A DNA stretch of 64,000 bases. It comes from Micractinium sp. NFX-FRZ. Its lineage: Eukaryota > Chlorophyta > Trebouxiophyceae > Chlorellales > Chlorellaceae. The position numbers were made by a program, and so were the translations under genes. Under the pieces are notes generated by a model that saw nothing but the letters and a program-made list of their open reading frames with translations, made no database searches and was not told the DNA's origin. Within the stretch, counting starts at the first letter, position 1. Each line of letters begins with the position of its first letter. Positions 3,305 to 54,588 of the stretch are shown one piece after another. The DNA is taken from assembly GCA_029339195.1 (NCBI GenBank), contig JAPTJF010000159.1, positions 1 through 64,000 on the forward strand, in the 5' to 3' direction.

Positions 3305-5859
3305 ATGCCCTCGCTGGAGGAGACCGCGCGTCAGCTCGCTGCGCCGGGCAAGGGACTGCTGGCCTCCGATGAGAGCACGGGCACTATTGGCAAGAGGCTG
3401 GAGAAATCGGGGATCGAAAACAGCGAGGTGCGGATGTGCGCCACCGCGGCTAGCCCCGCCGCCGCCGCACTCACTGTCCCCCAAGGCCTTGCTCCCTGGT
3501 CTCCTCTGCAGTAGAATCGCCGCCGCCGCCGCTCTCATGGCTCCGAGCCGCCCTCACTGTCCCCCAAGGCCTCGCTCCCTGGCTCCCCTCTGCAGGACAA
3601 CCGCCGGCGTTACCGCGAACTGTTCTACACAGCACCCATCGGGGACACAGGGGTGAGCGGCGCCATCATGTTCAAGGAGACGCTGTACCAGGCCGCCTCT
3701 GATGGCACGCCCTTCACGGAATGCCTGCTGCGCCAGGGCGTGTTGCCAGGCATCAAGGTGAGGAGGCAGGCAGCCCCGGCAGCCTTCAATTCGGCAGTGC
3801 ACCTGGCAGAGGCCAGGGCCTGAAGTGGCGACCGCTGCTGTGGGGTAGCCAGACGCCAAAGCCGCAAGGGAGTGTTGGGAGGGCTGGCAGCGGCGGCACC
3901 ACACACCTCATTCGCCCTGTGCGGGGGGCACCTGAGCTCTTGATGGTACTGGCCTGTACTGGCCGGCAGTCGACGCCCGCCTCCACCACCACCACACCTG
4001 CCCCTGTCCCTACCTGGCGCCAGGTGGACGAGGGTCTGGTGCCGCTGGAGGGCTGCCCCGGGGAGACCTCCACCCGCGGCATGGACAGCCTGGCAGCGGC
4101 CTGCAAGGAGTACGCCGCCGCTGGCGCCCGCTTCACCAAGTGGCGGTCGGCGCTCAAGGTCGGCGGCGGCTGCCCCTCTGAGAAGTGCATCGAGGTCAAC
4201 GCGCAGCAGCTGGCGGAGCAGGCGGCCATCTGCCAGGTGGGAAGGGGGGGACGGTGGGGGTGTGTGCACTGCTGGCTGCCGATTGTTGCTGGGGCGGCTT
4301 CGCCCCCTGCATATTGCAAACAATAAGTTCAATGCGCAACAGCTGGCGGAGCAAGTGGCAGGCGGCGGCCATGTGAGAGTGAATTCCCTCAGTATGGCTT
4401 TTAACCAACCAACCAAACTCAGCCCAGCAGGCCGGCTGCTGGCCTGTGCCCATTGCGTGACTACGGCTGCTGATCGACATTGGCCGTGTTCCAAGTGCCC
4501 TCACTTCTTTGCATTCCTCCTCATCTCCCTGCCAGGTTGCCAGCCTGGCCCCCATCAAGATCCAAAGCTGCTGAATGACTCTTTTAAAGCCTGCCTTTTT
4601 GTTCTGCAGGCCGCCGGCCTGGTGCCCATCGTTGAGCCGGAGCTGCTGATTGACGGGGAGCACGACCAAGCCGCATTTGCCGCCGCCAGCGAGCGCGTCA
4701 TCTCGGCGTGTGTGGCGCAGCTGTGGCGGCAGGTGCGCTGGGCACGCCGTGCATGCCGTGCTGTGCGTGCTGGGCGCCGGCGGTCGGAGGCGCCGCTGCT
4801 CAAGCCTTACACGACCACCCCGGGGCTCATGATCTCGCAATGTGGTCAGATCTCCCTACGCTTGCCACCCGCCTGCTCAACAGGGCGTACTGCTGGAGGG
4901 CATGCTGCTCAAGCCCCAGATGATCATCCCAGGGGCGGACTATGTCGGCGCACGCCCCACCCCAGACCAGGTGGCGGAGGAGACGCTGAGGGTGATGCGG
5001 CGCTGCGTGCCCGCCGCCGTGCCCGGCATCATGTTCCTCTCGGGCGGCCAGGTGCGGGGGGAAGGAGGGGAGGCGGGCGGAAGGGGTGCGCAGTGTGAGC
5101 CAGGCTGCCAGGCAGAGGTTGTGCGAGAGCCTGGGGGGCATGATGCGAGGCAGTGCAGTGGAGGTTGTGGGGCGGGTGTCTGTGCCTTGTGTTAAGCCAG
5201 TCAAACGTGTGCGTCTTTCTGTCCGGCCCCTGCCCCGCTCACAGACGGAGGAGGAGGCGACAGTGAACCTGAACCGCATCAACCAGGTGGCACAGCAGCA
5301 GGGCAGCGCGCCATGGAGCCTCAGCTTCAGCTTCGGGCGCTCGCTGCAGGTAGGGCGGGGACGGGGCCCGAGGGCGGGGCAAGGCGGTGGGGCGCGTGCT
5401 GCTGCTGCTCTAGGGAACCCTGCTGGCGGGCCCAGCAGTGCGCTGCCTTCCCCCATGCATGACAACACAGCAGCAGCACGCCTGGAGTCAGTGGTGAGGC
5501 ACGCTGCAGCACTTAATCCCACCGCACACGGCAGCCCGCGCCCGCTTGGTTTGCCTCCCGCCAGCTTGCCTTGTCCGCTTCGATGCCCAGCCCCAGCCTT
5601 TGCCCTGCCTGACCCTTTCCTTCCTCCGCCCTGCTCTGCCCTGCCCCCACCCTCCCTGCACCCGTGGCAGGCCAGCGTGCTCAAGCTGTGGAGTGAGGAC
5701 CGGGAGGGGAACGGGGACGAGTGCCGGGAGATGGCAGCGGCTCTGGCGCGGGCCAATGGGCAGGCAGTACTGGGGCGGTACGAGGGGCCCCACCCCAGCA
5801 TCACTTCCCAGCAGGGCTCCCTGCGGGAGAGCTTCCGTGGCTGGCGCACCGATGTGTGA
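3305..5859 (+). CDS. FBA: Fructose-bisphosphate aldolase, class I, cytosolic type
   Basis: It interconverts fructose-1,6-bisphosphate with dihydroxyacetone phosphate and glyceraldehyde-3-phosphate in glycolysis and gluconeogenesis. Seven phase-0 exons (3305-3427, 3596-3757, 4024-4236, 4610-4732, 4884-5051, 5245-5349, 5671-5859) give 360 aa, the normal family length. Landmarks are GLLASDESTGTIGKRL near the N-terminus, ARFTKWR, GLVPIVEPELLIDGEHD, LLEGMLLKPQMIIPG with the Schiff-base Lys, FLSGGQTEEEAT and WSLSFSFGRSLQ. The start is fixed by an in-frame TAA 21 nt upstream, and no transit peptide precedes it, so it resembles the cytosolic rather than the plastid isozyme. The C-terminus is GWRTDV and lacks the terminal Tyr typical of class I aldolases. 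Introns 1, 3 and 4 carry degraded copies of adjacent exon edges. Confidence 0.96.
3470..3595 (+). repeat. Duplicated 3' splice acceptor in FBA intron 1
   Basis: A ~42-nt block CTCACTGTCCCCCAAGGC...CTCTGCAG occurs at 3470-3511 and again at 3553-3595, 83-84 bp apart and nearly identical. The second copy is the working acceptor. Using the first would put TAG immediately after the junction in frame. Confidence 0.9.
4331..4376 (+). repeat. Exon-edge echo in FBA intron 3
   Basis: This is a degraded copy of the 3' end of exon 3 (4199-4245), 132 bp downstream. It still encodes NAQQLAEQ and ends in a GTGAG donor-like sequence, but the stretch after LAEQ has diverged from the real AAICQ. Confidence 0.85.
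4785..4834 (+). repeat. Exon-edge echo in FBA intron 4
   Basis: GGAGGCGCCGCTGCTCAAGC and the following ~30 nt resemble the start of exon 5 (4895-4940), which encodes the active-site LLKPQMIIPG segment. The copy lies about 105 bp upstream of the real exon and has lost the catalytic motif. Confidence 0.65.
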
Positions 5860-53500: not shown

Positions 53501-54588
53501 CAGCAGGTGCAGCAGGCGCACCGCGGCGCAGGCGGCGGCGGCGCCATGCAACCCATAATGGCGGTGCAGCAGGTGGCGGTGGCGCAGCCTGTGCCAGGCG
53601 TGCAGCAGATGTTCCAGCAGGCGGCAGCGCCGGGGCCAGTGATTCCGGGGCTGGCGCACGCAGCCGATCGGCCACAGGTGGGGCAAGAGGGCGGGGGACG
53701 CTTGGCAGCATGTTCCCGGGAGCGGGAGGCTCTGGGCTGCTGCGGGCAAGCCCCAGGGCTTGTGCTTGAGCTGCACCTGCATCGAAGCCTGCACCTGTCT
53801 CGATGTGTTCACTCCTTGCAACCCCATCCCTCCCCATCTCATGCATGCATCCTCCCATACTAGCCCCATCCGCCCTAGCGTATCGCCGCCCCCTGGTCCC
53901 GCCGATTGCCTGGGCACTCACGCCCACCGCCATGCGTGCAGGGAAGCTCCAGGGCGGCTCGCCACGTGTGCTGATGTCAGCACATGTCAGGTCCCCCACA
54001 CCCCTCCTTACCAGATCCTCTCCTGCTGCTCCTGCCTCTTCAAATATTGCAGGCCCCGGGGCGGCTCATTATGTAGGTCGCCAACTGACGGGTCTCTCAC
54101 ACCCCTCTTAAAAGATCTTCCCCTGCTCCTGCCTCCTCAATTATTGCAGGCCCCAGGGCGGCTCATCACATATGCTGACATCAACACCAACCTCATAGGG
54201 CGGCACGCAGAGCTGTACTGGCCCGCAGAGAACCAGTGGTACCTCGTTGTCATCCATGTGGGTGGGAATAAGTGCAGCTTGGATCGGGGGGCACTCCAGC
54301 AGCAGCCTGCTGGGTGTATTGCTGCCGTCATACACGAGGGAATGAGAACTCTGCCCCTCCAAGGCTTTGACCCCGCCGTCCACCTCTTCCCATTCACCTG
54401 ACTGCCTGCCTCCGCCCCCCTGCCTCACTGCTCGTCTTGTCCCTCCCTCTGCTGCCCCCTCCCTCCAGGGTTTCGACCCCGCCACACACAAGGCCTCCAT
54501 CGTCTACCCCACGACAGGGGAGCACGAGGAGCTCAGCTTGGATGAGATTGTGAAGGAGGGGCACATGAGCCTCATCAACCAGCGCTGA
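50583..54588 (+). CDS. ING-domain chromatin protein with C-terminal Tudor/EMSY-like domain
   Basis: Ten exons (50583-50622, 50794-50865, 51162-51271, 51553-51630, 51996-52061, 52521-52692, 53005-53151, 53346-53677, 54150-54257, 54469-54588) give 414 aa. The N-terminal ~130 residues form an ING helical domain: YLEKYIDSTTSLPAELNRIL, KDLDERSDDLAAQIQENVEL, DQIDKDQQLLIQFAEEKVQL and YDLLEQHLGQADLDIVHLEAE. ING proteins are subunits of histone acetyltransferase or deacetylase complexes and normally end in a PHD finger reading H3K4me3. No Cys4-His-Cys3 PHD is visible here. The last ~70 residues instead read LIGRHAELYWPAENQWYLVV, then FDPATHKASIVYPTTGEHEE, then LSLDEIV, a Tudor-like (EMSY-like/agenet-type) fold. 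Several introns hold exon-edge echoes. Confidence 0.85.
51684..51720 (+). repeat. Echo of ING exon 4 end
   Basis: GCAGAGGAGGAGGTGCAGCT resembles the exon 4 end GCCGAGGAGAAGGTGCAGCT (51601) about 85 bp away. The donor is lost. Confidence 0.8.
52101..52220 (+). repeat. Two tandem echoes of ING exon 5 end with donors
   Basis: The core ATTGTGCACCTGGAGGCGGA and its GTGAG donor at 52041 recur at 52111 (degraded, GTGGG) and 52190 (intact GTGAGG), spaced 70 and 79 bp. The last copy encodes VDIVHLEAE, like the true exon DLDIVHLEAE. A further partial copy of the exon 5 start (GAGCAGCACCTGGGGCAGGC) lies at 51785. Confidence 0.9.
53938..54080 (+). repeat. Two tandem echoes of ING exon 9 start
   Basis: GCAGG(C/G)..CC.GGGCGGCTC occurs at about 53938 and 54050 before the true exon 9 at 54150, spaced ~107 and ~97 bp. 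The middle copy keeps the acceptor TATTGCAGGCCCC, and the first retains CTGATGTCAGC resembling the real CTGACATCAAC. Confidence 0.88.
54356..54395 (+). repeat. Echo of ING exon 10 start
   Basis: CTCCAAGGCTTTGACCCCGC copies the acceptor and exon 10 start CTCCAGGGTTTCGACCCCGC 107 bp upstream of it. The acceptor AG is changed to AA in the copy. Confidence 0.88.

Follow-up and report, generated by a model that had tools for sequence, protein, structure and literature searches.

One current model of intron gain invokes tandem duplication (PMC4974935), and in Drosophila five of 31 novel intron positions were ascribed to partial tandem duplication (PMC2891723); small tandem duplications have also been described as products of breaks with overhangs in mammalian cells (PMC8355091, PMC5730883). 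Gain of intron length and the source of raw intron sequence are hard to see because their traces decay. Here we analysed a 64-kb stretch of the green alga Micractinium sp. NFX-FRZ (positions 1 to 64,000 of contig JAPTJF010000159.1, contig C159 in our numbering and hereafter the window), in which a first-pass annotation had described introns that carry degraded copies of adjacent exon edges, referred to below as echoes. The observation was confirmed: roughly one predicted intron in ten holds a decayed copy of the neighbouring exon edge. Together with the structure of the copies, this suggests that introns of this green alga grow by small tandem duplications that straddle their own borders.

Exon edges are copied into the adjoining intron

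The DNA analysed consisted of the window and 25 stretches of 10 kb chosen blind from the same genome, together 314 kb of 66 Mb (the assembly holds 66,065,352 bases in 838 contigs). Exon borders were taken from a two-strand hidden Markov gene finder that was trained on these same sequences with a minimum intron of 50 nt, and 569 of its 573 complete introns entered the echo tests (window and loci L002-L026; L001, the flank of the first genome match, was excluded from every count). Genes with <240 coding bp, introns cut by the end of a stretch and introns <60 nt or >3000 nt were left out, and simple repeats of period 1-6 were masked.

Direct repeats gave 341 matches at offsets of 20-600 and none at control offsets of 2000-2580 at score 36, with locus L006 contributing 164 of the 341; the same measure gave 43 and 0 in the window alone. 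To locate such copies relative to exons, 60 nt of each exon end was aligned with its own intron at a cut-off score of 28. Donor-side exon ends matched their own intron in 33/553 cases and acceptor-side ends in 25/555, compared with 7/5530 and 1/5550 when exon ends were paired at random with introns of other genes (introns up to 1500 nt). This is the comparison with shuffled intron-exon pairs that had been proposed as a check on the initial observation. Reverse-complement matches to the same intron were at background level (1/554 and 1/556), as were matches to those introns of the gene that lie at a distance of >700 bp (0/513 and 0/515); exon ends <20 nt were left out of these and the random-pair tests. 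The echoes are therefore direct copies rather than inverted ones, and they lie in the adjacent intron rather than in other introns. Inverted repeats were accordingly ruled out as their source.

With an 80-nt exon-end query, 59 echoes were found in 55/569 introns, distributed over 28 of the 75 predicted genes. The window holds 20 of them, in 18/126 predicted introns of 8 genes on both strands, which agrees with the estimate of about twenty examples in at least seven or eight genes made from the first reading. In the 25 other stretches, 37/443 introns carry an echo; these fall in 16/25 loci, and the remaining 9 have none, so that the density of echoes is somewhat higher in the window than elsewhere. 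The phrase "introns across the window" used at first was right as to the existence of echoes but too broad as to their density, since about 10% of introns carry one and not nearly all. The extra copies number one to three per exon, a count judged by eye only.

The repeated unit is near 100 bp and mostly crosses the predicted exon border

The pooled offsets peak at 90-109 bp, with 34 events compared with 12 at 70-89 and 11 at 110-129; these are border and intron-intron pairs before clustering, in which some duplications are counted twice. The 59 exon-end echoes alone show a weaker peak (19 at 90-109, with 8 and 12 in the 20-bp bins on either side), with a median offset of 113 and 43/59 falling within 70-140. 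The same range, 70-140 bp, had been given as the usual spacing in the window, where it is true of 16/20 echoes. The exon part that aligns is 14-77 nt long across the 59 events; an exon-edge block is indeed copied, although the 40-100 nt first assigned to it was somewhat generous. In 37/59 echoes the exon part stops ≤3 nt from the border, which is where it should stop if the unit extends across it. Several loci hold two or three evenly spaced copies, for example at 7515-7764 of L023 and at 26794-27107 of the window.

Border events align at identities from 0.73 to 1.0, indicating that duplication spans a range of ages and is, as initially proposed, a continuing process. The intron part of the unit could be tested in 30 of the 59 events and was recognisable above chance in 12/30. 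End joining at staggered breaks would be expected to leave blunt head-to-tail units with little microhomology; of 14 young complete units among the repeats, one, an interior unit at 5472-5647 of L014, aligns over exactly its 88-bp offset. The offset shows no relation to exon length (rho 0.11, P=0.39), and the position of echo introns within the gene shows no clear trend (mean 0.55 for 51 echo introns and 0.49 for all). We consider it likely that the exon-edge copies arose by head-to-tail duplication of blocks of about 100 bp straddling the exon-intron border.

Two other sources of inserted sequence were weighed against this structure. Short templated insertions of the polymerase-theta type, made at breaks in the intron by copying nearby exon sequence, would account for several copies that are 20-40 nt long with unrelated sequence between them; they would not be expected to reach the exon border as often as was observed, nor to carry the intron part along, and we regard this origin as improbable. 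Insertion of an introner or other mobile element with ends similar to exon edges would fit the many cases in which the sequence between copies has no homology to the expected partner. When 6 of the 55 echo introns (four whole, and the echo-bearing part of two) were searched against the whole 66-Mb genome, with very common words skipped and only the best candidates scored, they matched only themselves, two of them also matching the adjacent exon edge, and a mobile origin is barely credible on this result.

Echo introns are longer and their spare donor sites are depleted

Introns with an echo have a median length of 374 nt (n=55) compared with 242 nt (n=514) for the others (P=1.5e-13), and the footprints of echoes cover about 7.5% of intron bases. 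The first-pass annotation had left the choice between growth and birth of introns; the length difference bears out growth, and the layout of the copies speaks against birth. In the Rogers model of intron birth, a copy of the upstream exon end reportedly adjoins the far end of the new intron, and the length of the intron equals that of the unit. Echoes read as remnants of AGGT-bearing exonic segments that were duplicated and turned into introns would explain why exon sequence is present inside introns, but 0/59 echoes lie ≤12 nt from the intron's far end, the nearest being 63 nt away, which makes such a birth very unlikely for the copies seen here.

The copies bring spare splice sites with them. 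Spare donors kept their GT in 9/22 cases, whereas the conservation of the remaining copied exon sequence would give 16.7 (P=5e-4), with at least one of the losses (L023) being a 3-nt shift of the alignment; spare acceptors kept their AG in 10/15 cases, compared with 11.3 expected. Spare donors have been lost faster than expected and spare acceptors have not. The numbers are small, and they fit negative selection on spare donor sites. This also bears on tandem exon duplication, in which the copies would be, or would once have been, alternative exons. Some copies do retain a splice dinucleotide at high identity, in keeping with that origin, whereas the loss of donor GT is above expectation and, with whole-exon queries, 0/59 copies reach to within 5 nt of the far exon end, at a median coverage of 28%; we hold it to be highly improbable.

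A side observation on the same introns concerns strand composition, which flips between the two ends of the 569 introns: G is 0.39 and C 0.26 at +10 to +60 from the donor, and C is 0.43 and G 0.20 at -60 to -25 from the acceptor.

Repeat clusters are in excess at exon borders

The introns contain 61 repeat clusters with offsets of 60-170, the only range used for event clusters, and 57 of them cross a predicted exon border, which upholds the proposal of duplication across splice junctions. Per available sequence, there were 57 clusters in 106 kb at borders, 4 in 50 kb of intron interiors, 1 in 36 kb of intergenic DNA and 9 in 25 kb of exons, where only in-frame duplications are seen; by eye, these nine exon-internal clusters lie mostly in low-complexity or repetitive protein. 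The window alone gave 18 border clusters and none in interior or intergenic DNA, and the 25 blind loci alone gave 39, 4 and 1.

Such a distribution could in principle come from uniform mutation and survivorship, in which short tandem duplications occur everywhere, exon-internal ones are purged, and those at borders persist and can be recognised for longer, one of their copies being conserved; splice junctions would then be in no way special. In other systems, tandem duplications are frequent among insertions (PMC5730883). Purging within exons is also visible: where both copies lie within exons, the offset is divisible by three in 40/40 repeats, which in addition supports the exon calls, whereas the remaining repeats leave remainders of 0, 1 and 2 in 46, 37 and 41 cases, so the reading frame limits duplications only within exons.

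The uniform model was scaled from the 57 border clusters with a detection advantage of 1.33, simulated decay having given border-crossing events an advantage of 1.3 to 1.36. With a 100-bp unit, it predicts about 20 interior and about 14 intergenic clusters, compared with the 4 and 1 seen (P=1.3e-5 and 9e-6). The deficit is weaker with a 130-bp unit (P=0.02 interior, 2e-4 intergenic). It is also present in the 25 blind loci, where 4 interior clusters compare with 13.9 expected (P=0.002; at 113 bp 10.2 expected, P=0.03) and 1 intergenic cluster with 10.7 expected (P=0.0003; P<0.001 across unit lengths). Probes of the same geometry at score 28 gave 24 loci from 1548 intron probes, 2 from 1597 intergenic probes and 17 from 943 exon probes, although constraint on promoters and untranslated ends could depress the intergenic figure. 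Random duplications that survived account for some of the pattern, and the border enrichment exceeds what they explain; as a full account, uniform mutation with survivorship is rather unlikely. The early statement that one copy is kept as the true exon and the others decay describes a pattern that comes partly free from purifying selection on one copy; the junction bias still goes beyond the uniform model.

Several points weigh against growth by border-straddling duplication. Segments from the middle of introns find a match in their own intron at a rate equal to that of exon ends (24/399, null 4/3990), which would favour uniform mutation; this control does not decide on border preference, because introns are short (median 249) and the probes probably mostly catch the border-crossing events already described, and the cluster counts were used in its place. 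In 15/30 echoes (6/30 with upper-bound divergence) the intron part of the unit is less similar than would be expected from how far the exon part has diverged, so a simple tandem unit does not fit every case; the shortfall may reflect nested duplications, indels and the selection of events by a well-matched exon part, with filler sequence as another possible contribution. Part of the length excess of echo introns is expected since longer introns have more room for copies, and the size-biased median is 290. The exon borders are predictions of the gene finder and come from one genome. Finally, the sequence gives no reason why borders would be hot, and the border excess is measured but unexplained.

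Our leading guess, a weak one, is that duplication starts preferentially in exons, which would explain the border excess. It draws on the finding that in-frame duplications within exons are also frequent, and it is weakened because selection on repetitive proteins and constraint on intergenic DNA could matter. Taken further, exons might be hot spots for duplication of about 100 bp, and each spill over a junction would ratchet the intron outward by one unit with the protein unaffected, so that introns would grow from their edges; we offer this as a tentative possibility. Should the border preference hold with RNA-based borders and in related strains, a mutational process tied to exons or splicing would be indicated, and not neutral noncoding drift.

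Echoes and genes in the window

Six predicted proteins of the window have a Pfam match (class-I aldolase, COX15, trypsin/PDZ, ING, Nsp1_C and MYND). The aldolase and COX15 predictions cover their profiles nearly fully, and the other four contain domain matches; these matches, and the alignment of the ING-domain protein given next, support the predicted exon borders. The closest named proteins belong to Chlorella-clade green algae. The predicted protein of the ING-domain gene is 73% identical to a protein of Micractinium tetrahymenae (Chlorellaceae, Trebouxiophyceae) and aligns with proteins of relatives without echo-like inserts at its exon joints; the Deg-type protease is 77% identical to a protein of Micractinium sp. 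CCAP 211/92. The gene finder has weaknesses, in that some adjacent genes are fused and some weak exons added. The multicopper-oxidase-like gene at 28452-34400 was unused, its translation being partly out of frame. The copies in the window are as follows, with offsets in bp.

4326 to 4359, plus strand: donor-edge echo of aldolase exon 4024-4236 (source 4193-4226), offset 133, splice GT lost
4536 to 4580 (end approximate), plus strand: acceptor-edge echo of aldolase exon 4610-4732, offset 74, AG kept
3470 to 3582, plus strand: acceptor-side intron block repeated in the first aldolase intron (3470-3499 and 3553-3582), offset 83
6733 to 6951, minus strand: two echoes of COX15 exon 6973-7115 (6733-6792 and 6892-6951)
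7619 to 7679, minus strand: acceptor-edge echo of COX15 exon 7389-7561, offset 113, AG kept
9180 to 9255, minus strand: acceptor-edge echo of COX15 exon 8966-9108, offset 98, AG lost
9948 to 10171, minus strand: donor-edge echo array of COX15 exon 10240-10428, spacings of about 104 and about 114 bp
13197 to 13238, plus strand: donor-edge echo of exon 12971-13086 of an unnamed gene (11690-13742), offset 147
15717 to 15793, minus strand: donor-edge echo of Deg-type protease exon 15838-16017, offset 96
16778 to 16815, minus strand: donor-edge echo of Deg exon 16884-16996, offset 101, GT changed to TT
17613 to 17707, minus strand: acceptor-edge echo of Deg exon 17471-17553, offset 106, 90% identical, AG kept, intron part copied too
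26794 to 27018, plus strand: acceptor-edge echo array of MYND-gene exon 27060-27224, unit about 84-89 bp; two nine-base exons predicted inside it are probably false
38199 to 38275, minus strand: donor-edge echo of exon 38363-38570 of an unnamed gene, offset 131, GT kept
42562 to 42673, plus strand: donor-edge echo with intron part, Nsp1/NUP62-type exon 42395-42496, offset 99, 88% over 110 nt, GT changed to GC
43379 to 43419, plus strand: distant donor-edge copy of Nsp1/NUP62-type exon 42958-43064, offset 348
43729 to 43765, plus strand: donor-edge echo of Nsp1/NUP62-type exon 43562-43665, offset 108
51687 to 51711, plus strand: donor-edge echo of ING-gene exon 51553-51630, offset 86
51785 to 51811, plus strand: acceptor-edge echo of ING-gene exon 51996-52061, offset 226
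52185 to 52233, plus strand: donor-edge echo of ING-gene exon 51996-52061, offset 149, GT kept
52761 to 52791, plus strand: donor-edge echo of ING-gene exon 52521-52692, offset 97
53946 to 54069, plus strand: two acceptor-edge echoes of ING-gene exon 54150-54257 (53946-53983 and 53990-54069), offsets 204 and 97

A further echo in the window, at 43208, rests on a weakly coding and probably false exon. A search of genome contigs for related loci returned two bacterial aldolases only, which are uninformative, and none were found among viral contigs; the window has 0 Rfam matches to known structured RNAs.

Repeats of other kinds were also noted. Positions 1-77 of the window are a pure TTCA array, and 2736-2784 is a nearly pure CCTG array in a predicted intron. 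A long repeat exon of the phenylalanine-glycine type occupies 40533-41276 in the Nsp1/NUP62-type nucleoporin gene. In L006, a minisatellite-like array with units of 63, 78 and 156 bp (6035-6885) is predicted to be coding and runs over a predicted exon border.

Discussion

The measurements made here establish the copies themselves, with their direct orientation and spacing; they also show that the copies outnumber the matches in random pairs, that they cross predicted borders and that their host introns are longer. A sequence of events that could produce them would begin with the head-to-tail duplication of a block of about 100 bp lying across an exon-intron border. One border copy would stay spliced and be kept as exon, and the spare copy would leave with the intron; the protein would be unchanged and the intron longer by about one unit. 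The spare copy would then drift, its extra donor site apparently being selected against, and splicing in living cells would presumably disregard the copies. The units may come from the repair of staggered breaks, in which opposite-strand nicks tens to about 100 bases apart would be filled in and rejoined.

The traces are dense here, of many ages and tied to exon edges, and one small genome thus allows measurement of how large the unit is, how strongly borders are preferred, how spare splice sites decay and how fast introns grow.

Among the matches listed from the open-access literature, judged by titles and the starts of abstracts, none dealt with such a pattern in green algae, although this does not prove that no description exists. 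The nearest described systems are compared here as far as the accessible parts of the papers describe them. In tandem-duplication intron gain (including Hellsten 2011, as cited in PMC4974935), exon sequence and splice sites likewise enter the intron and the protein stays the same; there, an exonic AGGT segment becomes a new intron, whereas in the alga existing introns lengthen by a copy of their own border. The RdRp gene of potato (PMC4974935) is similar in that the duplicated segment spans an intron-exon boundary and its splicing signals come from the parent, but that is one case in which a new intron was made, compared with 59 cases in 314 kb here, none shown to make one. In Drosophila (PMC2891723), coding sequence was duplicated and one copy intronised, which resembles the alga; those are novel positions, whereas the alga has predicted introns with border-spanning units. 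The duplications from staggered breaks (PMC8355091, PMC5730883) share short head-to-tail units with the alga, where this repair route is only inferred, and splice junctions are absent from the material compared in those papers. Daphnia neointrons (PMC4202315) carry direct repeats of the intron and adjacent exon that were attributed to staggered breaks, whereas the copies in the alga are 14-77 nt of an exon edge placed typically about 100 bp inside the intron. Compared with these known cases, the alga is distinct in the density of the copies, the unit near 100 bp, the preference for borders and the effect on existing introns.

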